A stretch of DNA of 39,338 nt from Methanomicrobiales archaeon (GTDB taxonomy: Archaea; Halobacteriota; Methanomicrobia; Methanomicrobiales; Methanospirillaceae): NCBI GenBank assembly GCA_025350045.1, contig JANXYM010000035.1, forward strand, positions 1 through 39,338, read 5' to 3'. Each line of letters opens with the position of its first letter. Position 1 is the first letter of the stretch. This document shows positions 1,627 to 34,586 of the stretch, in pieces. The notes beneath the pieces are model-generated. The model was not told where the DNA came from, made no database searches, and saw only the letters and a list, made by a program, of their open reading frames with translations. The position numbers and the translations under genes were made by a program.

Positions 1627-1627
1627 A

Positions 1628-1635: not shown

Positions 1636-1887
1636 AGAGATTCTATCGTTTTTTCCCGGATATCAGGGGGTTTCTGCATATCCCCCGGTCTTCTGGTATC
1701 GCTGTTTAGTGATAGTGAAACCTGCGGTCAGGAAACCCCCCTTAAAAAAACGGGGATCCCAGAGAAGTTCCCGCTGGCATACGAGAAAACGTGGTCCTCA
1801 AAACAGGTGAGAGGAAAAATGAAACCGGGATCTGCTTCAGAATCGAATTGAGCATTTCTTCTTTCTGGTCCGTAGTACCCAACCGGG

Positions 1888-2808: not shown

Positions 2809-2965
2809 CGTTACAAAATCCCCCGTACGGAACAGTCATATCGGAAAGAATGAACCTATTTTTGGTGCTGATACCCGATATACGTTTTTGGTCTGCGGGG
2901 CTTTAAGGTGTTTTTCCCTCATCCTGTAGTATTCATTTTCGGGAAATCAAAAAAATCAAATCATC

Positions 2966-2973
2966 TTAATATA
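2966..2973 (+). promoter_or_regulatory. TATA box of the DedA gene
   Basis: TTAATATA lies 29 bases before the ATG at 3002. No Shine-Dalgarno site lies between them, so the transcript is probably leaderless or nearly so. Confidence 0.5.
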
Positions 2974-3001
2974 GGCAACGAGCCCATAAATTTTTACAAT
3001 A

Positions 3002-9622: not shown

Positions 9623-10939
9623 TCAGCAATCCGTATATCCTGCAACAAAATCCATCACGCTGCGGAGGCAGCCATCCATGTTCAGGTACTCGAATTGCGA
9701 GAACCTTCCCACGAGCGGGATCCCGATGGAGGTGCAATAATCCTTTACCCTCGCGACATTTTTCTGGTAATCGAGGTCATAGACCACGTAGGCAAAGGGC
9801 TGGCGTTCAACCGAGGTATAGACAACCTGTTCCCGGGTCAGGATGTGCATGGCCTCCAAAGTCGCGATCACCTGTTGGGTGAGTGCTGCATCATCCATGC
9901 GGGAGACTTCATCGCCGGGCAGGTGGGTGATCTCGGCCAGCACGGACCCGCATCCCCCGGGGGCCGCATGGGCACTGTAATTGGAGGGAAACGAGATGCG
10001 GTTGGTCATGCCAAGCGCAGTCTCCGGGATATAGAGCCACGAGATGTCCGGCACGGCTCCCCGGATCCCGATATTGACGCAGACAATGGCATTGTACCTG
10101 AGGGCATCACATGCCGCCTTTACGCTGTCCGGCACCCCGTCAAGCGCAGCAATGAGATGCTGCACCGGCATCGTGGAGATGCACTGTTCTGCCCTGATGA
10201 CCTCACTGCCATTGCTGATCTCAAAGACGCCCCCGTTCTTCCGGACCGAAGTAACGCGGAACCCGGTCCTGATCCGGCCCTGGATCGGCCGGGCGATTGC
10301 TGTTACCACTGCCTCAATTCCCCCGTCGAGGGGATAGGAGAAGACCGACTGGTGGGTGTAGCCTTCCGTGGAGATGCCAATGGCAGATTTGATCACATCC
10401 TCAACCGGCGGCCGGGGAATGCGCCCGTCCACCCAGTGCAGGGACATCTTTTCGGTGGGAAATTTCCAGATCTTTTCATTGTACGGGACCATGTAGCATT
10501 CGGCAATCCCTTTGCCGAAGGTATAGTAGATCCATTCCCTGAAATTTTCCGGCGCCGGCAGTTCGCCTTTCTCAACGGCCACATGGGTCCTGACAAACTC
10601 GTTGATGCAGAAGAAACGGTCTTCCTGCGGGAGGTCAGACAGCCCGTTCTCGAACGGGTATTTCACATACCGGTCCTTATAAAAAATCTTGGTATTCCGG
10701 TCATTGCGCTGCTCGTTTCCAAGAACCATCTGCCGCATGAACGCGAGCACTTCTTTGTCCCGCGAGAAGATGATATGCGAACCGCCGGTATCGAACGTGA
10801 ATCCCTGCTCATTTTTCGAACGGCAGAGCCCGCCACAGGCAGCTTCCGCTTCAAGAACTATCACGTCCCTGCCTTTCTCCTGCAGGAGGCGGGCCAGTGC
10901 AAGGCCGGAAAGTCCGCCACCCAGAATTGCAATTGTCAC
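9623..10939 (-). CDS. FAD-dependent UDP-galactopyranose-mutase / protoporphyrinogen-oxidase-like protein
   Basis: A 438-residue flavoprotein. The N-terminal Rossmann FAD motif is MTIAILGGGLSGLALARLLQ, followed by VIVLEAEAACGGLCRS and TFDTGGSHIIF, the usual second and third FAD/substrate segments of this superfamily. MVPYNEKIWKFPTEKMS near 155-171 resembles the substrate-domain region of UDP-galactopyranose mutases and related glycan flavoproteins. The C-terminus, VGRFSQFEYLNMDGCLRSVM, is the typical closing FAD motif. The neighbouring glycosyltransferases favour a nucleotide-sugar role over porphyrin chemistry (inference). A poly-T run on the minus strand between 9598 and 9616 may terminate it. 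Confidence 0.8.
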   Translation of the reverse strand: MTIAILGGGLSGLALARLLQEKGRDVIVLEAEAACGGLCRSKNEQGFTFDTGGSHIIFSRDKEVLAFMRQMVLGNEQRNDRNTKIFYKDRYVKYPFENGLSDLPQEDRFFCINEFVRTHVAVEKGELPAPENFREWIYYTFGKGIAECYMVPYNEKIWKFPTEKMSLHWVDGRIPRPPVEDVIKSAIGISTEGYTHQSVFSYPLDGGIEAVVTAIARPIQGRIRTGFRVTSVRKNGGVFEISNGSEVIRAEQCISTMPVQHLIAALDGVPDSVKAACDALRYNAIVCVNIGIRGAVPDISWLYIPETALGMTNRISFPSNYSAHAAPGGCGSVLAEITHLPGDEVSRMDDAALTQQVIATLEAMHILTREQVVYTSVERQPFAYVVYDLDYQKNVARVKDYCTSIGIPLVGRFSQFEYLNMDGCLRSVMDFVAGYTDC

Positions 10940-11021
10940 GGAGCTTATGTTGTGAGCCGGAATTTATATTATTGAGGGTAAGAAAGGGAGTACCTTTCCC
11001 GCCGTATTTTCATCCCTCCCG

Positions 11022-12062
11022 TTACTGGGGAACCGGCATGGGAGTGGCCGGTGAATCGCATCTGCCCATAAAGCAGATGAGTCCATTGGGACATGCAGTG
11101 TCGCAGGAACCACAATGCCTGGCATGAGTGTTTATGTTAAAACAGCCGTCCGGACAACTGGTCTGGTCTGCAGAACAGGTGACCGTGCAGGTACCCCCGA
11201 GGCAGAATTTTCCGGCAGGGCAGGAAATTCCGCAATCCCCGCAGTTGGTATTGTCCGTTAAGAGATCCGTGCAGTTGGCACCACATGCGCGGAGATCGGA
11301 TGGACAGATAAGGGCAGTTGTTATGGGTGCGGGAGTGCGGCCGGCAGAAGACGTTGTTACCGGAGTGATGGTCAGGACAGGAATAGTGGTATCAGTGCCC
11401 GTGAGCGCAGCAGTTGTCCGGGTGAGTGCCGGGGGCATTCCTCCCACCTCTGCGGACAGGAGCACCTGTCCCCCGGCATCCATGGTGCTGCCGTTTTTCA
11501 GTATTATACCGTCCTTTACAATTTCCACAACCAGGGGATGGCTGGCTGAACTGTCGAGTTTCCCGGCCGCCAGCTCGATCTTCCCTGCGGCATTGGGGAT
11601 CTCAAAATACCGTTCTCCGGAATTCTCTGTGGTCTGAAGGGCTCCCGGCATACCGTACGTGGCATTCCAGCTCCCGAGGTACCTGATATGCACCCAGACT
11701 CCGGAGGGGGGGACTTTCCAGGGTTCGGTCTCCCGGGGGATGACAAATGTGGCCGGGGGAGTTTCGGTTGTCGGACCCGGGAGCATCTGTGTTGAGGATG
11801 GCTGCGTGACACCGGACCGGTTTAGTTCCGGGAGAAAAAGCAGTGTGCCAGCGGCAATGATAAGGATGATAACGATGACTGCGGCAATGGCAAGTTTTCT
11901 ACCTTTTGTCATGGAGGGTACGGCAGCTTTTGGGTAATCGGGTGCGGGTACAGTTTCGGGTGAAACAGTTGTTTTGCGATCGGGAATTAAGGATCTTCCG
12001 CAACTGGTGCAGAACTGCTTATCCGGATCCACAGGTTTTCCGCATTGCGGACAGAATTTCAC
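11022..12062 (-). CDS. Zinc-ribbon membrane protein with extracellular Cys-rich repeats
   Basis: A 346-residue protein. The N-terminal double-CxxC zinc ribbon is MKFCPQCGKPVDPDKQFCTS followed by CGRS. One transmembrane helix lies near 56-77 (LAIAAVIVIILIIAAGTLLF). Next is a Thr/Pro-rich stalk and a beta-rich domain near 115-215 (WVHIRYLGSWNATYGMPGAL and onwards) that resembles lipoprotein-like outer domains in methanogens. The C-terminal cysteine-rich part holds two repeats with the pattern NCGxCGxxCPxGxxCxxGxC, like Cys-rich repeats of surface proteins in several phyla. The ribbon should be cytosolic and the repeats outside. It sits between glycan genes but shows no enzymatic motif. Confidence 0.75.
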   Translation of the reverse strand: MKFCPQCGKPVDPDKQFCTSCGRSLIPDRKTTVSPETVPAPDYPKAAVPSMTKGRKLAIAAVIVIILIIAAGTLLFLPELNRSGVTQPSSTQMLPGPTTETPPATFVIPRETEPWKVPPSGVWVHIRYLGSWNATYGMPGALQTTENSGERYFEIPNAAGKIELAAGKLDSSASHPLVVEIVKDGIILKNGSTMDAGGQVLLSAEVGGMPPALTRTTAALTGTDTTIPVLTITPVTTSSAGRTPAPITTALICPSDLRACGANCTDLLTDNTNCGDCGISCPAGKFCLGGTCTVTCSADQTSCPDGCFNINTHARHCGSCDTACPNGLICFMGRCDSPATPMPVPQ

Positions 12063-18084: not shown

Positions 18085-19608
18085 TTAATCTTTCGAGAAA
18101 TACCAGCCGGTCTGGGTCTCGTCAAGCACCTTTTCTGCGGTCTTTCTGGTGAGCAGGCTGACAATTACCATCGCAAGGATGGCAATCACAAATGCATAGA
18201 ACGAGAAGTGCATGGGTATCTTTGCAAAATCAATGCCCATGGCAACGGTCTTGAAATAGTTCAGGAATCCGACAACCAGCGATGAGACCAGTCCCAGCGA
18301 CATGGCGGCAAGCGCACCTTGCCGGGTTGCACCGCGCCAGTAGAGGCCTGCAAGGAGCGGGACGGCAAAGGTTGCGAGCATGACGCCGATCCCCATCCAG
18401 ATGAGGCTTGCCAGCATCTCGGGCGGGCTGATGGCAAGGAGCATGGTGCCAAAGGCCGAGAGCACGACCACAATTTTCGAGAGCAGGAGCACGGATTTGT
18501 CATCTGCATCGGGTTTCAAGACTTTCTTGTAGATGTCCCACGAGAACATGGCGCCGATCGTCAGCATCAGCCGGTCGGTCGTGGACATGACTGCTGCGAG
18601 CACGATCACGGCAAAGACTGCCCAGAATGCCATGATAGGCAGGGCATACTGGATCCCGTAGAGGATGACAAAATCCCCGGCATTCGGGACATTGGGGAGG
18701 GTGAACACCCCTTCCTTGACCATGGTGAGCCCGGCAAAGCCGGTAAACTTCAAGAGGAACATGGTTGCCAGGTAAATGAGGAAGGCAATAAGGGGAGCCC
18801 ATTTGAAGTACTTGACATCCTTGATTGCCAGCACATTGTTGATGACGTGCGGGGCGCAGGCGAGCCCGACCATCAGGAGAATGGCAAACGAGAAGATGTA
18901 GGGTATGGCAAATGCCCCGCTCGGCATCCAGGGCTGGACGAGACTCGGGTTGACCGATGCCACGAATTCATTGACATGGGTAAACCCGCCGGCATAGAAG
19001 ATGATGATGGGCGCCATGATGAGCACGCCCACGATCAGGATGATGGACTGGATGAGGGATGCCCAGGCAACTGCATAGAGGCCGCCAATCGCGGTATAGG
19101 CCATGGTCACGATAGTGGCGATCAGCAGGGCCAGCCAGAGCGGGATCTGGAAGAGCCAGATGAGCACGATGGCAATCGCGGTATACTGGCCGACAAGGTA
19201 GATCAATGAAACGATGATACCGGCCACAGCCGCAAGCGTCCGGAGCGCAGTCGGGCTCTCGTACCGGTGGGCGAGATAATCCTGCACGGTCACATACCCG
19301 GCCGTTTTTGCCACATTATGGAGCTTTACGCCAAAGAAGATGATACAAAACGCGATCGAGAGCGGGACAAAGATCTGCTCCCACATGGTGGGCCAGCCCA
19401 TCTTATACCCGAGGCCCGAGACCCCGAGCAGCGACATGCCCGAGCAGACCGTGCCAATCATCAGGAGGATGAACATCCAGAACCCGAGCGATCGCCCGGC
19501 AACAAGATAATCCTCGGTGCTCTTGATCTTGGTCGAAGCCCAGAACCCGATCCCGAGCATGGCAACGAAGTAGAGGCCAACTACGGCAACGGTAATAATA
19601 TCTGCCAT
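18085..19608 (-). CDS. Sodium:solute symporter (SSS family)
   Basis: A 507-residue protein with about 13 transmembrane helices. Family motifs include FWASTKIKSTEDYLVAGRSL near the N-terminus, MIGTVCSGMSLLGVSGLGYK, AYTAIGGLYAVAWASLIQSI (the SSS signature region), and the central VIVLAAVMSTTDRLMLTIGA, whose AxxSTxDxLL-type element contains Na+ site residues. It ends with a short cytosolic tail. It imports a solute with Na+; the substrate (for example acetate, proline or pantothenate) cannot be told. The ATG at 19608 (MADIITVAV) is preferred because AAGGGG lies nine bases upstream; ATG 19617 is also possible. It is one base downstream of the 34-residue hydrophobic gene, and this pairing is a known arrangement. 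Confidence 0.9.
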   Translation of the reverse strand: MADIITVAVVGLYFVAMLGIGFWASTKIKSTEDYLVAGRSLGFWMFILLMIGTVCSGMSLLGVSGLGYKMGWPTMWEQIFVPLSIAFCIIFFGVKLHNVAKTAGYVTVQDYLAHRYESPTALRTLAAVAGIIVSLIYLVGQYTAIAIVLIWLFQIPLWLALLIATIVTMAYTAIGGLYAVAWASLIQSIILIVGVLIMAPIIIFYAGGFTHVNEFVASVNPSLVQPWMPSGAFAIPYIFSFAILLMVGLACAPHVINNVLAIKDVKYFKWAPLIAFLIYLATMFLLKFTGFAGLTMVKEGVFTLPNVPNAGDFVILYGIQYALPIMAFWAVFAVIVLAAVMSTTDRLMLTIGAMFSWDIYKKVLKPDADDKSVLLLSKIVVVLSAFGTMLLAISPPEMLASLIWMGIGVMLATFAVPLLAGLYWRGATRQGALAAMSLGLVSSLVVGFLNYFKTVAMGIDFAKIPMHFSFYAFVIAILAMVIVSLLTRKTAEKVLDETQTGWYFSKD

Positions 19609-19609
19609 G

Positions 19610-19714
19610 TTAGTCATGCCCCTTAAACGTAATTCCCCAGTAAACAAGCGCTGCTATGGCGATGATGGTGACAACACCAAAGACCATGATTGTGATATCC
19701 GGTAATCCGAACAT
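19610..19714 (-). CDS. Symporter small accessory protein, 34 residues
   Basis: A short frame from ATG 19714 to TAA 19610-19612. It starts MFGLPDITIMVFGVVTIIAI and ends YWGITFKGHD. It is one transmembrane helix with a short polar tail. Its stop codon is followed by one base and then the symporter ATG, so the genes are translationally coupled. Such 30-40 residue helices encoded just before SSS symporters are described in archaea and bacteria as symporter small accessory proteins; the pattern MFG-D followed by a Val/Ile-rich helix and YWG fits. The role is probably assembly or regulation of the transporter. It is below the size normally annotated. Confidence 0.75.
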   Translation of the reverse strand: MFGLPDITIMVFGVVTIIAIAALVYWGITFKGHD

Positions 19715-20789: not shown

Positions 20790-22808
20790 TTACCGCCGGT
20801 TTTTCTGCGGACGGATGATCCCCTCGATCTCCCGCCGGATCATCTCCTCCGGGGTCCGGCTGAAGACCTCGAAGTCCGCCTCGGCCTGGGCGAGTTCCCG
20901 GGCGCGTTTTTCAACTGCGGGGCGGAGCGTAATCCGTTTCTTTATGATATCTTCCTGTATCCTGCGCAATGCCTGTGTGCCCTGCACCAGTTCCCGCTCC
21001 ACGGGCTTTATCTGCGGCTGGTATTTCCGGATGAGGGTCTGGAGATCTGACTGCTCTATGCCCCGGGAGGGATCGAAGAGGAAATTTCTCTCCATCTTCT
21101 CCCGCCACGCGAGGAGTTCGTTTGCCAGGGTGTTGTCGAGCTGGGGAACGCCCGATAACCGGTCCTGCGTGAAGTCGGCAGCCGTCCGGATCCCGGCGTA
21201 CTTCAGGGTATCCCTGAGCCCGGGCGTGAGCCGGGGTACGGTGCAGGTGTCTATACTGCAGCGCTCGAGAAAGGTCCTCTGCTGGCGCTCCTTTCGCATG
21301 CGTTCCAGAAAGAGGAGACCGGCCCGGTACTCCCGGTCAATGCTCTCGTATTTCCATTTGAGCTCCCGCAGCTGGTTCTGCCGGGCACGGAATGCTGTAT
21401 CACCTGCCTCTTGTGTCCATTTCCGGTTCCCGAGCTCCCAGAGGTACCGGGCACTGTCAAGGGCCTTGCGCCTCCTTCTCTTCTCTTCTGCCGCATCTCC
21501 CGGGTACAGGAAGAGGACCGCAACGAGTATCCCTGCCAGGAGGAAGATGAAATAATCAGTCAGGATCTCCCCGAGTGCCAGCACCGTGCAGATGGCGATG
21601 ATGACCATACCCGCGACCTGCCGGATGCTCCGGTAGTCAAGGGATCGTTCGAAATCCTTTGCAAGGGCAACCCGGTGGGGGATGAAATGTCCGGGGCTGA
21701 TTTGCGGGACCGGCCCGGGCGACGCGATCGCTTCCACCTTCTGCCACTCGCGCCGGAGATCGATCTTTGAGATCTGGTCTGCGCTTAAGAACAACAGGAG
21801 ACCGGAGTTCTCCTCAAGCCGGCACCACGGGCATGCAGCAAGTCCCGAATAGTAGCTGTGCACGGAGTCTGCGCTGCACTGCCGGATTCTCGTCTCCAGG
21901 GCCTCGAGTGCATTCCACCAGTCCCCGGCAGAGGGGCGGCTGCCGTCCTGTGCCCCCGTTTCAGAGAATGCCCGCTCGAAGAACGCGGCCACCTCGCCGG
22001 GAACGACCGAGAGCCCCACGGAGTTTGGCGGGGGGGCAATGGATTTGAGGGGGGAGTTTTTGCCATAGGCAAACCGGAATTCGGCAATTGCCTTTTCGAT
22101 GGGCATGTCCTCTTTTCCTGCATAAACGCCGGAGTAGGGATGCCGGCCAAAGAAGAGCAGCTGGAAGATCAGGATCGAAAGCCCGAAATTGTCATGGTTT
22201 GGCGTCCGCTCCATCCGGAAATGTTTCGAGTTCTGGATCTCGGGCGGGGTGAACTGGGCCACGCCCACTTCGCAGTAGTAGAGCCGGTCGCCCGAACGGA
22301 CCTGGAACGAGTCACAGTCGATCAGCCGGACACAGGCTGTTTTGTTGACGAGAATGTTCCCCTCGTTCACATCCCCGATCACGTACCCGAACTTGTGCAG
22401 CACAAAGAATGCGGCAGCCAGGTTTTTTGATGTGCGCACCAGGAAGCGCCAGTCCGCATGGGGGAAGTGCTCTTTCCGGTGCGTGGGCCCGTACACCTTG
22501 TGCACGGGTTCGTAATCGCTGATCTTCGGCATCAGGAAACCTATGACCGGCCCGCCTTGCCGGGCATGGAGCACATCGGTGGGCCAGGCCGAGATGCTCT
22601 GGAGCTCCTCATTGCATCCCCGGGCCATCAGGAGCAGTTTCTCCTGCTTCTGCAGATCGAGCGGCTTGTGGTAGATCTTGGCAACACTGTTCCCGTGCGG
22701 GGGAACGATCTCGTACACATCTCCTTCGCCACCGCTCCCGATCTTCCTGCCGAGGTGGATCCGGGTGCCGGTACTGTCAAAGAACGGCCTTAAGGGAACG
22801 GATGCCAT
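20790..22808 (-). CDS. Membrane-associated Ser/Thr kinase with helix-hairpin-helix tail (TerY-P triad kinase)
   Basis: A 672-residue protein. The N-terminal kinase domain has a glycine loop (GRKIGSGGEGDVYEI near 21-35), lysine (SVAKIYHK near 41-48), catalytic loop (FGYVIGDVNEGNILVNKTAC near 139-158) and magnesium loop written DCDSF instead of DFG. A short CPWC ribbon-like segment follows near 323. Two transmembrane helices lie near 395-440, then a basic coiled region. A helix-hairpin-helix near 540-590 reads TPGLRDTLKYAGIRTAADFT and VPQLDNTLANELLAW. The HRD motif is altered to IGDVNEGN, but the catalytic Asp and Asn remain. The gene begins three bases after PP2C, forming a tight operon. Kinases with an HhH tail next to vWA and PP2C match the TerY-P triad of chemical-stress or defence systems. 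Confidence 0.87.
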   Translation of the reverse strand: MASVPLRPFFDSTGTRIHLGRKIGSGGEGDVYEIVPPHGNSVAKIYHKPLDLQKQEKLLLMARGCNEELQSISAWPTDVLHARQGGPVIGFLMPKISDYEPVHKVYGPTHRKEHFPHADWRFLVRTSKNLAAAFFVLHKFGYVIGDVNEGNILVNKTACVRLIDCDSFQVRSGDRLYYCEVGVAQFTPPEIQNSKHFRMERTPNHDNFGLSILIFQLLFFGRHPYSGVYAGKEDMPIEKAIAEFRFAYGKNSPLKSIAPPPNSVGLSVVPGEVAAFFERAFSETGAQDGSRPSAGDWWNALEALETRIRQCSADSVHSYYSGLAACPWCRLEENSGLLLFLSADQISKIDLRREWQKVEAIASPGPVPQISPGHFIPHRVALAKDFERSLDYRSIRQVAGMVIIAICTVLALGEILTDYFIFLLAGILVAVLFLYPGDAAEEKRRRRKALDSARYLWELGNRKWTQEAGDTAFRARQNQLRELKWKYESIDREYRAGLLFLERMRKERQQRTFLERCSIDTCTVPRLTPGLRDTLKYAGIRTAADFTQDRLSGVPQLDNTLANELLAWREKMERNFLFDPSRGIEQSDLQTLIRKYQPQIKPVERELVQGTQALRRIQEDIIKKRITLRPAVEKRARELAQAEADFEVFSRTPEEMIRREIEGIIRPQKNRR

Positions 22809-22811
22809 AGA

Positions 22812-23576
22812 TCAACCCGGGATGCGCACCGCAAGCACGAGCGTCTTGTCGTCATCGCTGCGTGTACTGATATCCTCGCGAGAGAGGAACTCTTCGAGCC
22901 GTGCGGAGAACTCAGAAAATCCGTTCTCCGGGTGCTCCTGCAGGGCTGAGAAGAGCGGCAGGAAAAACCCGGCATGGGCCTTTTTTAAGGCAAACGAGAG
23001 GACCAGGTTCTGCAGCCCGTCCGTGAAGAGGGCGATCTGGTCCGGTGAGTCCTCGTGGAGAATGTGCAGGTGGTCGAGGTACTGATCGTCGGTGATGAAA
23101 TACGTGGTATTGGCGTACTCTCCCTGTTCCGGCCAGAAGATAGTCTGGTATTCTGCACCCGTACCGGTCACGATAGCGCCATCGCCCACCTGGAAGAAGA
23201 TCGCCCCTTCTTTTCCGGCAACCGAGCCCAGGATCGTGCAGGCATACTCCCGCAGCCGCTTCCCGTTTTCACCAGCTTCTGCGCTGACTGCTTCCCGGGC
23301 TGCCGTGATCCAGCCCTTCACCGCCTCGTCCGTGATTCCCGGCAGGCCACCTGCCTCCTGCACCGATTCTGCTATCTTCGTATAGAGCGTTCCGCAGGCA
23401 ATATCGGCCCCCCGTCCCCCGTCCGTGGTGCTGCCTGCGCCGTCAGCAGCAATCCCGATAAAAAATTCATTGTCGGATATCCGGACCGTACCGGCCCGGC
23501 ACGCGTCCTGGCCGTCCTCACCCCGCCCGGTGTGGGCCCTTCCGGTTACCGATGCGCAGCTGTACTTCCATCTCAT
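22812..23576 (-). CDS. PP2C-type protein phosphatase
   Basis: A 254-residue PP2C (PPM) phosphatase. Metal-binding motifs are FIGIAADGAGSTTDGGRGAD near 40-60, FFQVGDGAIVTGTG near 126-139, IALFTDGLQNLVLSFALKKA near 182-200, and near the end STRSDDDKTLVLAVRI. It removes phosphate from Ser/Thr, presumably countering the kinase encoded directly after it. Its ATG at 23576 overlaps the vWA stop codon (ATGA), so the three genes are translationally coupled. Length is short for PP2C but normal for the TerY-P type. No membrane segment is present; it is cytosolic. Confidence 0.92.
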   Translation of the reverse strand: MRWKYSCASVTGRAHTGRGEDGQDACRAGTVRISDNEFFIGIAADGAGSTTDGGRGADIACGTLYTKIAESVQEAGGLPGITDEAVKGWITAAREAVSAEAGENGKRLREYACTILGSVAGKEGAIFFQVGDGAIVTGTGAEYQTIFWPEQGEYANTTYFITDDQYLDHLHILHEDSPDQIALFTDGLQNLVLSFALKKAHAGFFLPLFSALQEHPENGFSEFSARLEEFLSREDISTRSDDDKTLVLAVRIPG

Positions 23577-24265
23577 ATCTCACTCCAGCCGATGGGAGGA
23601 GCGAGCTGGATCCGGTCGCCGGGATTGGACCGGGAGGCGGATTTCATGGAATTGGAGAGCCACTGGAAGAATTCCCGGAATTTCAGGCCCTGGAGTTTGA
23701 CCGGGTCCCGCACCGAGATCTGCCGGAGGATCTTCATGTCTGCCTTTGCTACACCAATGGCAAAGAAGGCAAAGGATTTGGCCTCCTCGCCTTCGCGGAC
23801 CATGGCTGCTGCCGCCTGCCAGTTGTCGGTGGGAGCCCCGTCTGTTATTAAGAAGATCCAGGGCCGGTAGAACGAGATCCCGTTGGCCCGGTACTGCTCT
23901 TTCCGGGTTTTGATGAGTTCGATCCCTTTCCTTATCGCCTCGCCCATGGGCGTGTCGCCAACTGCTTCGAGTTCGGGGTCGAAGAAGCATTCTGCGGTAT
24001 TGAACTCCGAGATGATCCGGACCGGGCCAAACGAGAGGAGGGCGACTTCTACCCGTTTTATCGCGAGCGAGTCGTTCTGCAGCTCGTTATAGAATTCCCG
24101 GATGCCGGCATTCAGTTCGGCAATAGGCTGGCCCGCCATGGATCCTGAGGTATCGAGCAATAAGAGGCAGGGGCACCGCGGTTCAGGGTTCTCTGCAAAG
24201 GTCACTGCCCCGAGGGGCTGCTGATCGGGGAGCATATAGGGGGTATTGTCACTCATCGGTTTCAC
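23573..24265 (-). CDS. von Willebrand factor A domain protein, TerY-like
   Basis: A 230-residue single vWA protein. A perfect MIDAS site is visible: LLLLDTSGSMAGQPIAELNA near 34-53 (DxSxS), GDTPMGEAIRKGIELIKTRK near 107-126 (the Thr), and FLITDGAPTDNWQAAAAMVR near 139-158 (the Asp). TerY proteins of tellurite/stress systems have this short single-domain form. It is the first gene of the coupled triad vWA-PP2C-kinase. No operator is clear in the 100 bases upstream. By analogy the vWA protein binds a partner in a metal-dependent way while its phosphorylation state is set by the kinase and phosphatase. The partner is not in this window: no TerC or TerD gene is seen nearby. Confidence 0.9.
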   Translation of the reverse strand: MKPMSDNTPYMLPDQQPLGAVTFAENPEPRCPCLLLLDTSGSMAGQPIAELNAGIREFYNELQNDSLAIKRVEVALLSFGPVRIISEFNTAECFFDPELEAVGDTPMGEAIRKGIELIKTRKEQYRANGISFYRPWIFLITDGAPTDNWQAAAAMVREGEEAKSFAFFAIGVAKADMKILRQISVRDPVKLQGLKFREFFQWLSNSMKSASRSNPGDRIQLAPPIGWSEI

Positions 24266-24640: not shown

Positions 24641-24822
24641 CTGAGATAAATATTGTAATGATTTTCATGCTTTGGGTTTGAACTTCCGTTCATGCCCGGT
24701 TCAACAGAAGCGTTTGTTTTTGTACACCCCGTTCCGGGGCAAATTTAAGGGTATTGCCTTCCTGTCACAGCCATTATACGCAGGCAGGAGAGAGGATTAG
24801 GAAAGAGTTCTCCGGTGACTTC

Positions 24823-25638
24823 ATGAGCGATCTCATTGTTCTTTTGGCAGCTCTTGCGTTTGCCATATTTCTCATCTTCCGCGAGCAGAAGTTTGCAGCC
24901 ATTGCCGGCTGGGCGTGTATGGTGCTCAATCTCTGGTCGGAGCTGCCGGCATTTCTCCAGGAAGGCAATTTCCTGTACCCGGCGCTGGTCCTGCTCTCCC
25001 TGCCCTTTCTTGCCATTACGGCAGACCGTCTTTTCCATTCGGATCCGGCCGTGCTCCAGCTCTCGCGGACTGCTGCAATAGCCACGCTCATCTATGTCCC
25101 GTTCGCCCTGATTCCGCCACTCCGCGACGTATTGATCTCCTTTGTCGCAGGGCTGGCATTCTGGCTTATCACGGCTCTCGGCCACCACCCTTACCGGGTG
25201 GCGTGGGACGTGTTTGCCGAGAACGTCTTTTCCAACCAGATCATTCTCGGGTGCACGGGCATTACGGCAATTGCCCTCATGCTCGGCATTGCCTGGGGGG
25301 CAAAGCCTCTCTCCCGGCAGCAGGCCGTGCGCTCGTTCCTGCTCGTGGTCTTTCCCATTGCCGTACTGAACCTGCTGCGGGTGGTCGCAGTTTTCATTGC
25401 AGTATCCGACCAGTGGTTTGCCCGGTTTCCTGATCCCACGGGTACCGGCGATGCAAACTTCTTCTGGGCCCATAATGTGATAGCAGAAGGCTTAGCCATC
25501 CTCTTCCTGCTGGCTCTCGCGTGGGGACTGGTCCGGATCATCCCGGGGCTTGCGGTATTCTTCAGAAATGTACTGCTGATGTACTACCACCGGTGTTGCC
25601 TGCCCTTCACCCGGCTCCAAAAGAGCCTTTTCCCGTGA
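24823..25638 (+). CDS. artA: Archaeosortase A-like transpeptidase
   Basis: A 271-residue polytopic membrane protein of the exosortase/archaeosortase family. The catalytic triad-like residues are visible: Cys in LGCTGITAIALMLG (near 142-155), Arg in AVLNLLRVVAVF (near 181-192) and His in NFFWAHNVIAEGLAI (near 214-228). Eight or so hydrophobic helices surround them. Archaeosortase A cleaves C-terminal PGF-CTERM tails of secreted proteins and links them to archaeal lipid. No PGF-CTERM protein is encoded in this window, so its targets lie elsewhere. The ATG at 24823 is preferred (GGTGACTTC just upstream) over an upstream in-frame start at 24754. A TATA-like AAATTTAAGG lies near 24740. Confidence 0.85.
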   Translation: MSDLIVLLAALAFAIFLIFREQKFAAIAGWACMVLNLWSELPAFLQEGNFLYPALVLLSLPFLAITADRLFHSDPAVLQLSRTAAIATLIYVPFALIPPLRDVLISFVAGLAFWLITALGHHPYRVAWDVFAENVFSNQIILGCTGITAIALMLGIAWGAKPLSRQQAVRSFLLVVFPIAVLNLLRVVAVFIAVSDQWFARFPDPTGTGDANFFWAHNVIAEGLAILFLLALAWGLVRIIPGLAVFFRNVLLMYYHRCCLPFTRLQKSLFP

Positions 25639-28732: not shown

Positions 28733-29128
28733 TTATTTCCGCATCAGGAATCGCACGCTTTTCCGGCCTTTGAAATGCAGGTCCCCGGTCACGACGACAA
28801 GATCGTTCTCTTCTGCAGTTGCCAGGATCAGCCGGTCTGCCATACCGCCTCCGAATTCAGCCCGGGTATACAAACCCGCACGCAGTGCTATAGCTTTGTC
28901 AACCGGGATGATGCTGCTCAAAGCGTACATTGCATCAATGGCTCTTCGTGCGTCAGCTGCCGTGAGTCTCCGTCTGAATACATTTGCCACCTCCGCAATA
29001 GTAATAATAGACGTGTACGTGGTATCCGCACTTTCGACCAGATCGATGAGCCCGGGATCCGGTGCATCGAAATACTCTATCCAGGCCCAGGTGTCAAGCA
29101 GGTGAGCGATACGGATCATCCTCCTCAT
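28733..29128 (-). CDS. PIN-domain ribonuclease toxin (VapC-like)
   Basis: A 131-residue PIN protein from the ATG at 29128 (MRRMIRIAHLLDTWAWIEYF). A second ATG at 29119 (MIRIAHLL) lies right after AGGAGG and is equally possible. Acidic catalytic residues are visible: D in LLDTWAW, E in TIAEVANVF, D in GGMADRLILATA and D in VVTGDLHF. This is the usual VapC set for Mg2+-dependent RNA cleavage. Its start overlaps the end of the upstream antitoxin-like gene (stop at 29094) by about 35 bases, the classic toxin-antitoxin arrangement. T-tracts near 28690-28720 follow the stop codon. Confidence 0.85.
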   Translation of the reverse strand: MRRMIRIAHLLDTWAWIEYFDAPDPGLIDLVESADTTYTSIITIAEVANVFRRRLTAADARRAIDAMYALSSIIPVDKAIALRAGLYTRAEFGGGMADRLILATAEENDLVVVTGDLHFKGRKSVRFLMRK

Positions 29129-29384
29129 CACGCTCGAAGGGTCCGATGCCGGCAAATGCTCCCGCACTCGAGGGAATGCTGTTCTTCCATTGCCGGAACA
29201 GGAACCTGATGGCATCGTTATATGTCCTGACATCAGGCTGGCTCTGTTTGATAATATCGAGTTTCCCCTTTGCATCCGCGTCAAGCTGGACGGGGTTTCT
29301 GGGAGCCGCAACTACCGGTTTTTTGGGACGCTCCTTTCGTATCCCCGCAGGATGTTGTGCAGCTTTTTGTTTTGAAATTGCCAT
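29094..29384 (-). CDS. VapB-like antitoxin partner of the PIN toxin
   Basis: A 96-residue protein starting MAISKQKAAQHPAGIRKERP at 29384. It has a basic, Pro/Ala/Lys-rich head, a VQLDADAKGKLDIIKQ helix near 34-50, and an acidic end PFERDEEDDPYRSPA likely to block the toxin. It does not match a known VapB family by eye (no clear AbrB fold). Position, size, polarity and the overlap with the toxin gene support an antitoxin. The ATG at 29384 is chosen because a TATA box lies 26 bases upstream; a longer upstream frame exists but lacks coding character. Confidence 0.7.
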   Translation of the reverse strand: MAISKQKAAQHPAGIRKERPKKPVVAAPRNPVQLDADAKGKLDIIKQSQPDVRTYNDAIRFLFRQWKNSIPSSAGAFAGIGPFERDEEDDPYRSPA

Positions 29385-29414
29385 ACAGTATACAGTATGG
29401 TGTAAGTATAAATC
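29382..29414 (-). promoter_or_regulatory. Promoter and direct-repeat operator of the VapBC-like pair
   Basis: GATTTATACTT at 29404-29414 (minus strand) is a TATA box about 26 bases before the ATG, so the transcript is probably leaderless. ATACAGT repeats twice in tandem (ATACAGTATACAGTATG) across the start, a plausible autoregulatory operator. Confidence 0.5.
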
Positions 29415-29470
29415 AGTTTCCCGGCTTTTCTGCTGACGCTGGCATTGTGCCAATTCTGGTGGGAAAGTGA

Positions 29471-29504
29471 GGGGATTTGATGCTGTCAACCGAGGTTTAT
29501 TTCG
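29471..29504 (+). repeat. Junction motif, copy A
   Basis: GGGGATTTGA, then TGCTGTCAACCGAGGTTTAT. Shares the core with the copies at 32485, 33849, 34486 and 36125, and its flank GTCAACCG(A/G)(A/G)G-TTTA with the copy at 36125. Confidence 0.6.
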
Positions 29505-29524
29505 CCACAGCCAGCGTGTAATCC

Positions 29525-29604
29525 TATACATTACCCATGGTTGATCTCTGCATTTTCTTTACATTAGTAATGTACAAAAATATATTTGTGCCATTGCGGG
29601 GAGG
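29525..29604 (-). repeat. Leader L3 relic without its gene
   Basis: TATACATTACC, then CTGCATTTTCTTTACATTAG, TAATGTACAAAAAT and GGGGAGGA match the leader of the DUF4143 ATPase gene (32361-32441) block by block. The first dyad is broken (TACATTACCCATGG); the second, TACATTAGTAATGTA, is intact. No ATPase coding sequence follows; the VapB-like gene lies downstream instead. Confidence 0.6.
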
Positions 29605-29715
29605 ACCAATGAAAGGGAGCGAACCAAAAGCATTGCCGGGCGACACGATTGTCATTTGTACATAATTGCTGCCTGCACACGAATCAAAAAAATACGCACT
29701 ATCCCTGAACCTTCA

Positions 29716-30207
29716 TCAGAGGACATCCATGATTTTTTTGACACATGTTTCAAAATCATCGTGTGAACAGTCGATCGTTATATCGGCATACTGTTCATAC
29801 AGGGGAATCCTCTGGGTGTACATAGCGAAGAGACCCTGGCCCGCAACCAGCACAATTCCCCGCGTAGTGATGTTCCTGAGTCTTTTTTCCATCTTCTCAA
29901 AGGAGATCTTCATGTAGAGGACAATCCCTTCGGATTTCAGGTGTTCCATTGCCCGCCCGCTGAACACAACACTGCCCCCGGTCGCAATAACCGTATGGTG
30001 ACACCGGATGGACATGATCGTCGTCTCCTCGATCTTTCTGAACCCATCGGGCCCATCCGTGTCAATAATTTCCTGCAAAAGCCTCCCGGTCGTTTCCTGA
30101 ATCACGATATCGGTATCGATAAACTTCATTCCCCGGATTTTTGCGAGGATCACACCCACGGTGCTCTTGCCTGCGCCGGGCATGCCAATGAGGATGATGT
30201 TTTTCAC
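29716..30207 (-). CDS. Shikimate-kinase-like P-loop kinase (AroK type)
   Basis: A 163-residue AroK-like protein. The P-loop LIGMPGAGKSTVGVILAKIR (near 5-24), IDTDIVIQE (shikimate Asp), DGFRKIEE (Arg of the shikimate site), IATGGSVV (GGG-like loop) and PLYEQYADITI (adenine-side end) are all kept. Only the lid differs: TTRGIVLVAGQGL replaces the usual RPLL. In bacteria this enzyme phosphorylates shikimate, but archaea generally use an unrelated GHMP-type shikimate kinase, so a bacterial-type gene in this island suggests horizontal transfer and perhaps another substrate. No ribosome-binding site is strong. It is separated by 70 bases from the upstream P-loop gene. Confidence 0.72.
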   Translation of the reverse strand: MKNIILIGMPGAGKSTVGVILAKIRGMKFIDTDIVIQETTGRLLQEIIDTDGPDGFRKIEETTIMSIRCHHTVIATGGSVVFSGRAMEHLKSEGIVLYMKISFEKMEKRLRNITTRGIVLVAGQGLFAMYTQRIPLYEQYADITIDCSHDDFETCVKKIMDVL

Positions 30208-30277
30208 AAAGGGGATCCCCGATTTTGTTTTACGGCTGTGTGTATATCAAATGTCCGGGGAGATCATGCCGGAATCG

Positions 30278-30856
30278 TTACGTCTCCCTTATACGCGCTA
30301 ACAGATCTCTTGTGATGACAGAATACCTGTCCCCAACGGAAGTTGTACTCCTGGATTCCTGCCGTGTTGCATGAAAACCTGGTTCCCTGCTCCAGACGCT
30401 ATCCCAGGCACATCCGATTGAGTCGTGAATAGCCGGAACCGAATATTCGATCGGTCCCCAGGGAAACGGCGCGGGAATATTCTTCTGCCTCTGCAGGGCC
30501 CGGGTTATACAGGTGTCCATTGGAAGCACAAGCCAGATTACCCATACCGGGATTGTGGAGCATAGAAGGTTTTTCCGGACTTCATCTACGTGGATTCCTC
30601 CTCCGGAAAATTCCAGAATTGCCGGTGTGGAGCTGCCGCATATCTCAAGAAAGTGGTCCCAGGCGCAATCCTCTCCGGAGATTGTACCGTCTCCATAACG
30701 GATCCGGCATTCATCAATCGATGCGTACGGGAAACCGGTATCCCGTACCAGGAGTTCTGCAAGAGTTGTCTTTCCGGATCCCAGCGTCCCGATTAGCAGG
30801 ATTTTCCAGGGGCTGATTGCGAGTCTCTTCATGTTAGAAAAATCAAGCGGGTCCAT
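30278..30856 (-). CDS. P-loop nucleotide kinase of unknown type
   Basis: A 192-residue protein beginning MDPLDFSNMKRL. The Walker A ILLIGTLGSGKTTLAELLVR lies near 19-38; a candidate substrate Asp-Glu sits in YASIDECRIRYGDG; the lid-like RALQRQKNIPAPFPWGPIEY is near 118-137. Adenylate, gluconate or zeta-toxin kinases share parts of this layout; no class is decisive. The start at 30856 is supported because its leader is nearly identical to that of MntA (39171), whose ATG is at the same position; an internal ATG at 30832 (MKRL) is weaker. It precedes the AroK-like gene. Confidence 0.6.
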   Translation of the reverse strand: MDPLDFSNMKRLAISPWKILLIGTLGSGKTTLAELLVRDTGFPYASIDECRIRYGDGTISGEDCAWDHFLEICGSSTPAILEFSGGGIHVDEVRKNLLCSTIPVWVIWLVLPMDTCITRALQRQKNIPAPFPWGPIEYSVPAIHDSIGCAWDSVWSREPGFHATRQESRSTTSVGDRYSVITRDLLARIRET

Positions 30857-30934
30857 ATCGGTTCCTGTTACCAGATGGGTATACCGTTTGGATAATGGAT
30901 GCCTTGACCCGGTAATTCCGGTAATCAGATATGA
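30852..30934 (-). repeat. Shared leader L2, copy 1 (P-loop kinase)
   Basis: GTTCCTGTTACCAGATGGGT, then ATACCGTTTGGATAATGG, then CCTTGACCCGGTAA match 39167-39247 with few changes. The start codon and even its first codon ATG-GA(C/T) coincide; similarity ends inside codon 3. The matching region includes GGTATACC. Confidence 0.75.
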
Positions 30935-32367
30935 TCTGTTTTCCTGCCGGCCGGTTGAGATGCTTTACTCTTGTAATGTTTCTGGATTCCTGCCTTGGCC
31001 TTGTGATCGAGTGCGATGGTATCATTCTCGTTTTCCTGATCCATGGTATCGACAAGCGCTGTATTGTTACCATTCGCCGGTCTGATCGCAGCATCCGAAG
31101 GGTACCGTGTCACGTCCCGGTATTCGACGAGCCATTTCCAGACCGGCAGCACCCGTATGACTGCGGTACCGAGCGAAATCGCCTCCTCCTGGTGATACGT
31201 GAGGATCATACCCTCATCCAGATTATGCGTAGTCATCGCTCCGGCAAGGCCGCCGATTTCCCGGTCCCGGTTCTCCCGCGTGAGTTCATAACAGACCTGG
31301 ATCGCCCCGGTAATCTTCCCCTTCTCTTCCATGATAAAATCGCATTCTTTGGGATTCTTAAAGAAATATACGGATTTTCCCCTGCGCAGGAGCTCAATGA
31401 GCACGAGATTTTCCAGTATCCTGCCTTTGTCATCCGAAAACCGGAATGCGACGGCATTTCTCATGCCCGTGTCGATGCAATAGAGTTTCTTCTCGTTGAC
31501 GTACTGTTTTTTTAAGGAAAAATCGTACCGGAAGATCTCGAAGATAAGGTACGCTTCTTCTAAAAAACCGACATAATCCCGGACCGATGCAACACTCTTG
31601 AACCCCAGCGTGTTTTTTAAGGCATTGTAGGTTGCCGCGTTTGCCGTATTGGTAAAGAGGTAGTGGGCAAGGTGCCGGAACCCCTTAACCTCCCGTATCT
31701 TAAACCGGCTGATGATGTCCCGGTACAGGATGTCATCGTAGCACCGCTTGAGATATTCTGTATCCCCGTATTTCAGGAATTCGGGAAAGCCCCCGCCAGC
31801 GAGATACCGGTCGAACTCTGCGAGGATGGCGGCTTTCTTCTTTTCTGTGATGCGGTCCTTGTCAATCGACCTGAACTCAAGGCATTCCCGGAATGAGAAC
31901 GGGTAGAGAGTAATCTTGGTATACCGCCCGGTAAGGTGAGTCCCGAGTTCCGCAGAGAGGAGATTGGCATTGGAACCCGTGAGGAAGATTTTGTATCCCT
32001 CATCATGGATCCTGCGGATGAACCGCTCCCAGCCCGGGACATTCTGGATCTCATCGATAAAGAGGATCTTGATTCCCGGAGAGGTCTTTTCGAATACGAG
32101 CATCAGGGAGGGAAAATCTGACACGGAAAAGTCCATGAGCCGGTCATCATCGAAATTGATGTACAGGAAATCGCTGTATTGCGCTGACACCTGCCGCATG
32201 AGCGTTGACTTGCCGCAACGCCGTATCCCGGTGATCACGACAATCGCATCGGTCTTTATGAAGCGTTCGGTTGCGATCTCCCGGGGTATACCGGGATCCC
32301 GGGAAAGGAACGAATCTTTCTGGGTGAGTACCAGTTCTTCGAGTTGAGGGGCCAGGATCATATACAT
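30925..32367 (-). CDS. ATPase with AAA domain and DUF4143
   Basis: A 480-residue protein of the common archaeal/bacterial DUF4143 ATPases. Walker A (VVITGIRRCGKSTLMRQV) lies near 43-60 and Walker B (KILFIDEIQNVPGWERFI) near 98-115. FLTGSNANLLSAELGTHLTG near 128-147 is the sensor-like segment; the DUF4143 end reads GRILENLVLIELLRRGKSVY and KECDFIMEEKGKI. It may regulate transcription or another complex; function is unknown. About 60 extra residues after VWKWLVEYRDVTRY lack family character and may be read-through sequence. The start is ATG 32367 (MYMILAPQ) or 32361; the longer 32373 start begins with TTG. A dyad operator lies in the leader. Confidence 0.85.
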   Translation of the reverse strand: MYMILAPQLEELVLTQKDSFLSRDPGIPREIATERFIKTDAIVVITGIRRCGKSTLMRQVSAQYSDFLYINFDDDRLMDFSVSDFPSLMLVFEKTSPGIKILFIDEIQNVPGWERFIRRIHDEGYKIFLTGSNANLLSAELGTHLTGRYTKITLYPFSFRECLEFRSIDKDRITEKKKAAILAEFDRYLAGGGFPEFLKYGDTEYLKRCYDDILYRDIISRFKIREVKGFRHLAHYLFTNTANAATYNALKNTLGFKSVASVRDYVGFLEEAYLIFEIFRYDFSLKKQYVNEKKLYCIDTGMRNAVAFRFSDDKGRILENLVLIELLRRGKSVYFFKNPKECDFIMEEKGKITGAIQVCYELTRENRDREIGGLAGAMTTHNLDEGMILTYHQEEAISLGTAVIRVLPVWKWLVEYRDVTRYPSDAAIRPANGNNTALVDTMDQENENDTIALDHKAKAGIQKHYKSKASQPAGRKTDHI

Positions 32368-32410
32368 TACCAATGTATGCTTTATGCATTTTATTTACAT
32401 TACTAATGTA
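32363..32410 (-). promoter_or_regulatory. Paired TACATT-N3-AATGTA dyads in the ATPase leader
   Basis: TACATTACCAATGTA at 32363-32377 overlaps the start codon. TACATTACTAATGTA at 32396-32410 lies next to the TATA box (TTTTTATAC near 32408-32416, minus strand). Their centres are 33 bases apart, about three helical turns, so one protein on one DNA face could bind both. The same pair, with the first half damaged, occurs at 29527 and 29560 with the same 33-base spacing. Confidence 0.6.
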
Positions 32411-32484
32411 TAAAAATTTGTATGCGGCGTGATTGGGAGGATCTGTACTGGAGCGAAATGAGGTCCACGGGTCCGGCCTTTTTC

Positions 32485-32518
32485 GGGGATTTGACGCTTC
32501 AATAGGGGCTTTTGCCCC
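32485..32518 (+). repeat. Junction motif, copy B
   Basis: GGGGATTTGACGCTTCAATA, followed by GGGGCTTTTGCCCC, a small hairpin. It is nearly identical to copy D at 34486-34519. It lies just after the 3' end of the Fic gene on the minus strand. Confidence 0.75.
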
Positions 32519-32557
32519 GAGCCTGCGTTAGCCTGCCGGGACTCTTTAAAAAAAAGA

Positions 32558-33709
32558 CTATTGCCCGGTTCCCCGCTCGATAATCCGGAGATAATCGCTA
32601 AAAAGATATTTCTTGTACCTTTTTTTACCGGTAATCTCCCGGAGAATCTCGAGTTTTTCGAACTGGTTCACCAGATCATAGGCCGGCTGGTGACTGATAC
32701 CAAGTGCTGAACTGATATCCGCAACAGTGACTACCGGTTTTTTGAACAGGAGGTCGAGAAGCCGGACTGCATTGAGCCCCCCGGCATTATTTTTCATGAG
32801 GGTATCAACAAGTCGTTCCTTTAAGGAGATGATCTCCCGTGCATTGGCCAGGGCTTCATTGGATACTTCAATGATGCCACGAAGGAAAAATTTCAGCCAG
32901 GATTCCCAGTTCCCCTCGATTCGGATTTCCTGGAGAAGAGAGTAATATTCTTCCCGGTGAGTTTTTAAATATATACTTAGGTAGAGGAGAGGGCGGGCGA
33001 GAATGCCTTTCTGGCAGAGATAAAATGTGATGAATAACCGCCCCATCCGGCCATTCCCGTCAATGAACGGGTGAATTGTCTCGAACTGTGCGTGAACGAG
33101 TCCGATCTTGATCAAGGGGGGTATCCTGTCATCAGCGATAATAAACGATTCAAGGTCTGCTAATAATGCCGGCACTTTTTCCGGAGGTGGAGGAACGAAC
33201 GTTGCCGAATGCAGGTGCGAGCCAACCGGTCCGATCCAGTTCTGGACTGTGCGGATCTTTCCGGGCTCCTTTTTGCCGCCCCGTGTTCCTTTAAGGAGGA
33301 TGCGATGGATCTCCTGCAGGATCTCAACGGAAAAGATCTCGCGGCTTGTGTGTTTTAGTCCCTCATCCATTGCCCGGATATAGTTGATGACTTCTTTAAC
33401 TTCATTGATGTCATCTGCAGGAACCATATCTGCTTCAAACTCGAGTACTCCCTGGAGCGAGGCCTGCGTACCTTCAATCTGGGAACTGAGCAGTGCCTCT
33501 TTTTTCACGTACATTGCAACGAAAAGATCCGCATTGGGCAGAACGGTTGTCATGCCGTCGAGTCGGGCGAGGGCCCGGTCCGCTTCTGATAAAAGGTGAT
33601 GAAGTTCGTCATCAAAATGGAGCGGTGGATCCGGGGGGAGGGATTTGGGGATATATGCATGGTATCCTCCTTTCTGTCGTACCGTAACACCCATCCGGCT
33701 TTCCATCAT
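32558..33709 (-). CDS. Fic-family protein with inhibitory helix and wHTH end
   Basis: A 383-residue protein. The class II inhibitory motif SSQIEGTQASLQG is near 76-88. The Fic core HPFIDGNGRMGRLFITFYLC is near 217-236, with the complete HxFxxGNGRxGR needed for AMP or other NMP transfer. The C-terminus near 310-380 is a winged helix: VVTVADISSALGISHQPAYD and VNQFEKLEILREITGKKRYK. These proteins AMPylate target proteins; some act as toxins kept in check by the inhibitory helix, and the wHTH suggests DNA-linked autoregulation. It starts inside a repeat shared with 35937-36135 (MMESRMGVTVRQKGGYHAYI). A T8 run follows the stop. Confidence 0.93.
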   Translation of the reverse strand: MMESRMGVTVRQKGGYHAYIPKSLPPDPPLHFDDELHHLLSEADRALARLDGMTTVLPNADLFVAMYVKKEALLSSQIEGTQASLQGVLEFEADMVPADDINEVKEVINYIRAMDEGLKHTSREIFSVEILQEIHRILLKGTRGGKKEPGKIRTVQNWIGPVGSHLHSATFVPPPPEKVPALLADLESFIIADDRIPPLIKIGLVHAQFETIHPFIDGNGRMGRLFITFYLCQKGILARPLLYLSIYLKTHREEYYSLLQEIRIEGNWESWLKFFLRGIIEVSNEALANAREIISLKERLVDTLMKNNAGGLNAVRLLDLLFKKPVVTVADISSALGISHQPAYDLVNQFEKLEILREITGKKRYKKYLFSDYLRIIERGTGQ

Positions 33710-33859
33710 AATTCTTCGTCTCCAGAAAATGGTTCGGGATTTCGCTTCTAATTCTGGACAGCCAGAGTTACACGCGATTATGTTGTTTAAGTCTGTTTAT
33801 CCAGAATAAGGTTGTGGTGATGTGGGCCGGTACAGGGAATGGCAGTGTGGGGATTTGAC
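33652..33859 (-). repeat. Shared leader L1, copy 1 (Fic gene)
   Basis: Covers the first 20 codons of fic, the start and about 140 bases of upstream DNA. Matching blocks are ATATATGCATGG, ATCCTCCTTTCTGTC, TCCGGCTTTCCATCAT, CACGCGATTATG, TTTAAGTCTG and GGGGATTTGAC. The matching copy lies at 35938-36135. Copy 1 has about 14 extra bases before the final motif. Confidence 0.8.
33849..33859 (+). repeat. Junction motif, copy C
   Basis: GGGGATTTGAC at the outer end of the fic leader; continues ACAACAAATGACACCC, unlike the other copies. Confidence 0.65.
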
Positions 33860-34021
33860 AACAAATGACACCCTGGTACACAAAGCATGTGTCCTTTTTT
33901 CCTTTCCGGAATGCAAACAGAGGAGCGTGAAAAAATAATCAGGATATTTTACCCCATCGATCGAGTCAATAATGTTGTATCTATCGAGGCAATAAATCAC
34001 AAGGATGAATGTTAGATTCCT

Positions 34022-34205
34022 TAAGTCTTTTGCAACATCTTCAAAGTCACGGGATTTGACATTCTTTGCTTTTCCCTTTTTGATCTGTGCCATGACATCC
34101 CGATCCGCAAAGGACTTCGATAGTGCGGTTCATGGAATCATATCCATCTTTGGATATGGTCACCAATTCGGGTTCATGCCTGCCAGGAACGAGTTCTTTA
34201 TTCAT
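34022..34205 (-). pseudogene. Frameshifted RelB/YefM-like antitoxin
   Basis: From ATG 34205 the frame reads MNKELVPGRHEPELVTISKD, then GYDSMNRTIEVL, and derails. A one-base shift near 34109-34111 (a run of A on the plus strand) restores ADRDVMAQIKKGKAKNVKSR and DFEDVAKDL. This is the usual RelB/YefM-like ending: ILxDxxxMxQIKxGK, then FEDVAKxLG. No intact RelE-type toxin follows; the 150 bases after it show only fragments. It is probably a decayed toxin-antitoxin gene. A second, unrelated 68-residue frame at 34231-34437 was not accepted as a gene. The repair reading is mine and rests on one inferred base change. Confidence 0.55.
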
Positions 34206-34485
34206 TTCTACACAAGTGAATTCTCATTTTTCAGATAATAAACAATGAGGCAGCTCTCATTTGAAACCGGAGAAATGGGTAAGAATTATTTTGCATTTCC
34301 GAAATCCAGCCCCGTAGGTGGAGGGCAGGGCTGCAGAGTATGTCCTGGTGAAAAAGAATCCCGACATTAGCCCGACATTCTCTATTAATTTGAAGATATG
34401 TGCAGTTCTTGAGATCGCTCTTTTTAACTATTCTCAATTTACAAGAAGAAAAATCCGGATTTCAGGGCAAAAAAGTGGGAAATGT

Positions 34486-34519
34486 GGGGATTTGACGCTT
34501 CAATAGGGGCTGATGCCCC
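34486..34519 (+). repeat. Junction motif, copy D
   Basis: GGGGATTTGACGCTTCAATA, then GGGGCTGATGCCCC. Same arrangement as copy B, here after the 3' end of the HNH gene on the minus strand. Confidence 0.75.
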
Positions 34520-34586
34520 AGCCGCGTGGGCTTCCCCCGGAAGCGGATGACCGGGAATGAATCAAAAAACCGGAGTGTCAGATTTT

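Follow-up and report, generated by a model that had tools for sequence, protein, structure and literature searches.

A YegL-PphC-YegI-type gene set in Methanoregula as a candidate membrane-tethered phosphorylation switch

Three tightly packed genes on contig JANXYM010000035.1 of a Methanomicrobiales archaeon (assembly GCA_025350045.1) raise the question of what a von Willebrand factor A (vWA) protein, a PP2C-type Ser/Thr phosphatase and a membrane Ser/Thr kinase accomplish together in a methanogen. The analysed stretch of DNA, referred to as the window, comprises 39,338 nucleotides. The initial annotation, which placed the triad correctly at 20790-24265 and recognised the tight coupling of its genes, took it for an unusual set of the TerY-P type (TerY-P triads are reportedly the subject of Anantharaman 2012). 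All three genes are located on the minus strand. The gene of the YegL/TerY-like vWA protein (23573-24265; 230 amino acids) starts with GTG at 24265, an in-frame ATG being present 9 bases further in, and overlaps by 4 bases with that of the PphC/YegK-like phosphatase (22812-23576; 254 amino acids), which is separated by a gap of 3 bases from that of the YegI-like kinase (20790-22808; 672 amino acids). Because of this overlap and this short gap, the three genes look like one transcription unit; a scan for promoters and terminators around them yielded nothing usable, its consensus being bacterial and the host an archaeon. The vWA protein and the phosphatase are recognised by the Pfam families VWA (38.8 bits) and PP2C_2 (152.5 bits), respectively, and all three genes are real and intact.

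Comparison with the proteins of Escherichia coli K-12 by BLASTP reveals the identity of the set. The vWA protein shares 60% identity with YegL over 219 amino acids, the phosphatase 34% with PphC (YegK) over 252 and the kinase 36% with YegI over 644 (E 1e-133). Since the match to YegI spans the kinase domain, a CHCC motif, the membrane part and the helix-hairpin-helix (HhH) tail alike, the archaeal triad represents the same set as that of E. coli and more than the same mixture of domains; that it is the counterpart of YegL-PphC-YegI leaves us in hardly any doubt. The triad thus loses the unusual character ascribed to it by the initial annotation, and a speculative reading is replaced by a named counterpart which has been approached experimentally: the set is familiar, the host unusual for it. 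According to PMC13232886, E. coli YegI resides in the membrane and phosphorylates itself, and PphC removes the phosphate again, so that the question of kinase and phosphatase activity put by the initial annotation is already answered for the bacterial counterpart. Naming by means of PADLOC and NCBIfam provided no model specific to the triad, and among the matches listed in a literature search there is no paper on the triad in archaea, which says nothing about print at large.

The kinase domain, delimited by alignment and Foldseek, comprises residues about 18-300 (21909-22757, minus strand, as are all features of the kinase gene) and contains K44, G145-D146-V-N148, N151 and D164-C-D166, the last of which the initial annotation regarded as an altered DFG motif. 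Of 78 aligned kinases, 19 of them archaeal and 59 bacterial, 77 retain the two aspartates of this D-x-D motif. The sole exception is the copy at locus L050: its kinase is divided between two frames, so that its row is out of frame at this position. Between the two aspartates, 62 of the 77 kinases have Cys, 14 have Ser and one has Ala, with E. coli YegI featuring DSD. Because the two aspartates are kept so consistently, DCD is, as judged from the alignment, a family signature and neither an alteration nor a sign of decay; D-x-D is simply normal for kinases of the YegI type. K44 is found in every one of the 75 rows without a gap at its position, and D146 in 77 rows, with a gap in L050. N151 is not universal, being Ser in nine and Leu in two bacterial rows (Ser in E. 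coli). The motif C311-H317-C326-P-W-C329 (21822-21878), whose CHCC residues are present in 78 of 78 kinases, is located between the kinase domain and the membrane part and presumably binds metal in the manner of a zinc site; the initial annotation does not mention it. The partner proteins are equally well preserved. The residues D38, S40, S42, T105 and D142, which form a site of the metal ion-dependent adhesion site (MIDAS) type in the vWA protein, occur in all 72 aligned copies, and D45, D132 and D186 of the phosphatase in all 75; D241 and D242 are seen in 74 of these 75 with one gap, and D24 in 74, the odd copy (L045), with Thr at this position, having a frame break in its PP2C gene. Loss of catalytic residues, raised by the initial annotation as a point that would speak against its reading, is found neither in the window nor as a trend of the family.

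Beyond the catalytic part, the two membrane helices and the HhH tail assigned to the kinase by the initial annotation are borne out by hydropathy, AlphaFold2 and the fold match of the tail. The AlphaFold2 model of the whole kinase shows a mean predicted local distance difference test (pLDDT) value of 89 and a predicted template modelling (pTM) score of 0.66, and its best Foldseek matches are protein kinases; a search of solved structures by sequence returned only distant kinases, with PknA as the best (E 0.0013). Hydropathy places the membrane helices at residues about 398-436 (21501-21617), followed by the basic stretch EEKRRRRK, and the model shows helices at 384-412 and 419-434. The strongly basic residues just behind the helix pair agree with a membrane hairpin whose two ends, and presumably both termini of the kinase, face the cytoplasm. 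The tail, residues 500-582 (21063-21311), was also modelled on its own (pLDDT 88) and resembles, according to Foldseek, parts of Rad51, of Y-family polymerases and of the C-terminal domain of RNA polymerase alpha, which we take to be HhH elements, at probabilities of at most 0.98 and with no E-value below 0.38. The Pfam family HHH_5 does not match the tail of the window kinase and weakly matches the one in a copy from E. coli, with E 3.5e-4 and 21.4 bits vs a cut-off of 27. Both hairpins of this (HhH)2 tail are degenerate in the archaea. The G-x-G of hairpin 2 (residues 553-558) is missing in all 19 aligned archaeal copies, a new observation, and is present in 51 of the 59 bacterial rows, four of the other eight being gapped; that of hairpin 1 (residues 524-528) occurs in no archaeal and in 22 bacterial rows, the last glycine without the first remaining in six of the 19 and 30 of the 59, respectively. 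The glycines of HhH hairpins contact nucleic-acid backbones, so that the tail of the archaeal kinases may lack DNA binding.

Within the order Methanomicrobiales (232 genomes) the survey of triads proposed by the initial annotation gave any match to the kinase at E <= 0.001 in 72 genomes and matches to the vWA protein at E <= 1e-20 in 60, 26 of them belonging to Methanoregula, the genus of the window (39 genomes). A kinase of the YegI type is present in 26 genomes of the genus; beyond these, the family adds a single genome, G136, which likewise bears the name Methanoregula sp. The kinase accompanies the vWA protein in 25 genomes of the genus, on the same contig in 24 and on different contigs in G184; G183 has the vWA protein only and G189 only a broken kinase. 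In 29 of the 34 other vWA-bearing genomes a kinase domain, read by hand, lies on the same contig. When the membrane-HhH part alone was searched in 392 genomes of the phylum, matches over most of its length were obtained only in the genus (nine genomes, in G189 in two pieces), six further matches covering 30-59 positions at E 4e-4 to 9e-4. New here is that, among the archaea searched, the YegI-type kinase occurs only in genomes named Methanoregula or relatives. A scan of genome collections found 84 relatives, of which 80 were kept (19 archaeal, 61 bacterial); its patterns derive from a Methanoregula-rich alignment, so that distant relatives may be missed. The 19 archaeal ones are all named Methanoregula, Methanoregulaceae or Methanomicrobiales. 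The order vWA-PP2C-kinase is found at 70 of the 80 loci; at four of them the kinase follows only after a gap exceeding 100 bases. At seven of the other ten the kinase lies at most 1.2 kb from the end of its contig; partners are missing altogether at L079, a vWA match is missing at L098, and L109 is broken. We would like to note two peculiar arrangements: A Synergistaceae copy carries two tandem vWA genes before the PP2C and kinase genes (L072, 5842-7193), and four other kinases from the taxonomic family of the window (G130:C79, G200:C16, G204:C89 and G207:C1) have frames of 1,189-1,428 amino acids which the query matches twice, as if they contained two kinase domains.

In the trees of both the vWA protein and the kinase, the Methanoregula-type rows form one clade amid bacterial copies (support of 99 and 100, respectively, in the Shimodaira-Hasegawa-like approximate likelihood ratio test, SH-aLRT). 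Triads of other Methanomicrobiales, L030 and L032, were chosen as outgroup, both with long branches; the vWA protein of L030 is 53% identical to that of the window vs 60% for E. coli. A single transfer, probably out of a bacterium, is the simplest reading of these sequence relationships; many deep forks of the trees are weak. The plasmid records with relatives of the kinase number 79, of which 36 match over at least 80% of the query, and plasmids are a possible route of such a transfer. Decayed copies are found as well. On the complete chromosome of Methanoregula sp. SKADARSKE-2 (L029, about 1400-3340, also L109) there is no PP2C match, the vWA gene is cut short and the kinase lies in several frames; elsewhere the kinase (L028/L050) or the PP2C gene (L022/L045) is split over two frames. 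Some of these frame breaks may be assembly errors.

The residue counts bear directly on the notion that DCD has killed catalysis and that the kinase is retained only as a scaffold. Such a pseudokinase would be in line with a motif which differs from DFG, with a Pfam Pkinase score of 29.8 bits, falling below the cut-off of 31.7, and with the title of one paper which, as cited in PMC13232886, calls E. coli YegI lacking conserved motifs. However, every row whose frame is unbroken at these sites has K44, D146 and the complete pair of D-x-D aspartates, and the DSD-bearing E. coli YegI is reported by the same source to autophosphorylate, so that we rejected this explanation as very improbable. Even more remote appears a tellurite or metal-stress switch operating in concert with Ter proteins from other parts of the genome, to which the intact MIDAS-type site of the vWA protein, the CHCC motif of every aligned kinase and a single TerC-family gene on another contig (37.6 bits) could be related. 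A TerD match is found neither anywhere in the genome of the window nor in any of the 232 genomes of the order (among 14 control genomes a signal appears in Bacillus subtilis and Deinobacterium chartae only), and since the TerC-family search also matches nine of these controls, E. coli included, it marks a general membrane family. A ter-linked role was dismissed on these two grounds. The initial annotation had noted the absence of TerC and TerD genes near the triad, suggested that it acts without them and advised a search of the remaining genome; all of this agrees with our results, no TerD partner having been found and E. coli doing without TerD, too.

The idea of a role in defence deserves more attention. 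Defence systems usually are patchy, and anti-phage TerY-P is reportedly dealt with in Gao 2020. A stand-alone anti-virus system of TerY-P-like kind, whose kinase-phosphatase pair would sense infection and block the virus by phosphorylation, would suit the patchy presence of the set in the genus, the kinase relatives on plasmids and the defence-type genes which PADLOC detects in the window 7-12 kb from the triad. Moreover, a partial mad2 match (77-78 bits, PADLOC) adjoins the triads of L036 and L038, the gene being located just after the kinase (10512-11264 and 10422-11243, respectively), the best PADLOC match of the window kinase is to PD-T4-6 models (24.8 bits, through the kinase domain), and related triads shield bacteria from phages, as stated in PMC7699616 and PMC10889362. 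In contrast, the PADLOC model of the TerY-P kinase, STK_OB, scores only 14.2 bits and neither the vWA protein nor the phosphatase gives a match at E 0.01, the E. coli set showing a like picture. The OB-fold present on the kinases of tested anti-phage triads, according to PMC11090510, is not seen in the window kinase. Furthermore, the E. coli counterpart belongs to the core genome, since 5342 of the 5426 complete genomes of this species contain at least 80% of the operon, and only two weak relatives are found among phage records. Out of 29 listed nearest neighbours of Methanoregula-type triads 20 were scanned, 17 of which match no PADLOC model; the other three are the two mad2 cases and a weak match in L044 (22 bits). 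As the triad does not fit the anti-phage TerY-P models and its E. coli counterpart is core, defence is not favoured and we consider it unlikely. Hence, the stress or defence signalling unit at the membrane which the initial annotation had in mind retains its tie to the membrane, provided by the two helices of the kinase, and largely loses its defence part, although the defence-type genes nearby speak for it.

The reading which we prefer to these alternatives is that of an archaeal YegL-PphC-YegI counterpart which constitutes a self-contained membrane switch. Taken as a whole it is highly probable and builds on the full-length homology, the gene order, the conserved catalytic residues, the predicted fold and helices and the absence of TerD, all observed for the archaeal set. 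Mechanistically, the two-helix hairpin would hold the kinase at the inner face of the membrane, where its substrates would be the kinase itself and probably a membrane-located target; the phosphatase encoded alongside would strip off the phosphate and reset the kinase, and the vWA protein with its intact metal site would most likely be a metal-dependent adaptor coupling the pair to a signal or target. A TerD protein would not be needed. Because of the E. coli reports and the homology, autophosphorylation and its reversal may be expected in the archaeon as well. With membrane location, autophosphorylation and dephosphorylation by PphC carried over from these reports (PMC13232886), we regard such a switch as the reasonably probable mechanism, with less assurance than the reading as a whole.

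Several points weigh against this view. The identity of the kinase to YegI amounts to only 36%, and its Pkinase score stays below the cut-off. The tail hairpins are unlike the bacterial ones, so that the target or partner may differ. The kinase is wrecked in G189 and split over two frames in G170, and since only 26 of the 39 genomes of the genus possess it and broken copies exist, the set looks dispensable. The defence-type genes at 7-12 kb have to be added here. Going further, one may tentatively imagine that the complete bacterial circuit entered the ancestor of Methanoregula in a single event and continued to function there unaided by any partner from bacteria, its tail losing the hairpins of nucleic-acid type meanwhile; the three proteins would then be a complete signalling unit whose tail acts on proteins or the membrane and not on DNA. 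We rate this as rather less probable than its opposite. If it were true, comparison of the archaeal and bacterial sets would disclose the essential parts, namely kinase site, CHCC motif, membrane hairpin, vWA metal site and PP2C, with the HhH hairpins as parts free to change. The phosphatase of the triad is the sole PP2C_2 match in the genome, in which PF00481 has no match and Pkinase has three; it may therefore be the only phosphatase of its type in the cell and also serve other kinases.

As to the surroundings, an archaeosortase A gene lies beside the triad in the opposite direction (24754-25638, plus strand; NCBIfam TIGR04125, 189.9 bits vs a cut-off of 75), and a search of 19 loci turned up no match to it next to other triads of the Methanoregula type. 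Among these 19 loci the symporter of the window (18085-19647) recurs in L033 and L034, and three further neighbours match single loci, two in L034 and one in L048. Conserved neighbours were of little help as a clue to function, the largest clusters of neighbouring genes beyond the triad comprising nine loci; as many of the 19 loci are short, the absence of neighbours is weak evidence. On the minus strand at 28733-35864, a PIN-domain gene followed by AAA/DUF4143, Fic and HNH genes forms a small defence-type group, in which PADLOC recognises a PDC-S01 candidate (AAA/DUF4143, 30925-32373, 401 bits), the Fic gene of SoFic (32558-33709, 390 bits) and an HNH gene of the mREase_IV type (34587-35864, 62 bits). 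With regard to CoCoNuT systems with TerY-P, no McrB/McrC or HEPN family was detected by Pfam among 29 chosen open reading frames of the window (86 of at least 100 amino acids in all), no dedicated CoCoNuT model having been run.

Among known systems, the triads described as TerY-P in PMC11090510 consist of a vWA protein, a PP2C phosphatase and a kinase followed by a zinc-type motif. The window triad shares this composition and, with zinc binding presumed from the CHCC residues, belongs to the TerY-P triads in the broad sense of vWA, PP2C and a kinase with C-terminal zinc ribbon; it differs in that its genome has no TerD and that its kinase carries membrane helices and an HhH tail. With the anti-phage TerY-P systems described in PMC11090510 and PMC7699616 it has the three protein types in common, but the kinase shows no OB-fold tail and the PADLOC TerY-P models do not recognise the set. 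The TerY-P-like triads of other Methanomicrobiales such as L030 and L032 likewise place a kinase domain next to vWA and PP2C, yet their kinases match the query only to about residue 373 and hence have other tails. The closest resemblance is clearly to YegL-PphC-YegI of E. coli, which agrees in the gene order vWA-PP2C-kinase, in the full-length homology of all three proteins and in a kinase with D-x-D, CHCC motif, membrane part and (HhH)2 tail, and whose K-12 genome was silent in the TerD control search. It differs by yegJ, inserted between pphC and yegI in K-12, by a host which is not a methanogen and by tail hairpins, none of the 19 archaeal rows having a full G-x-G.

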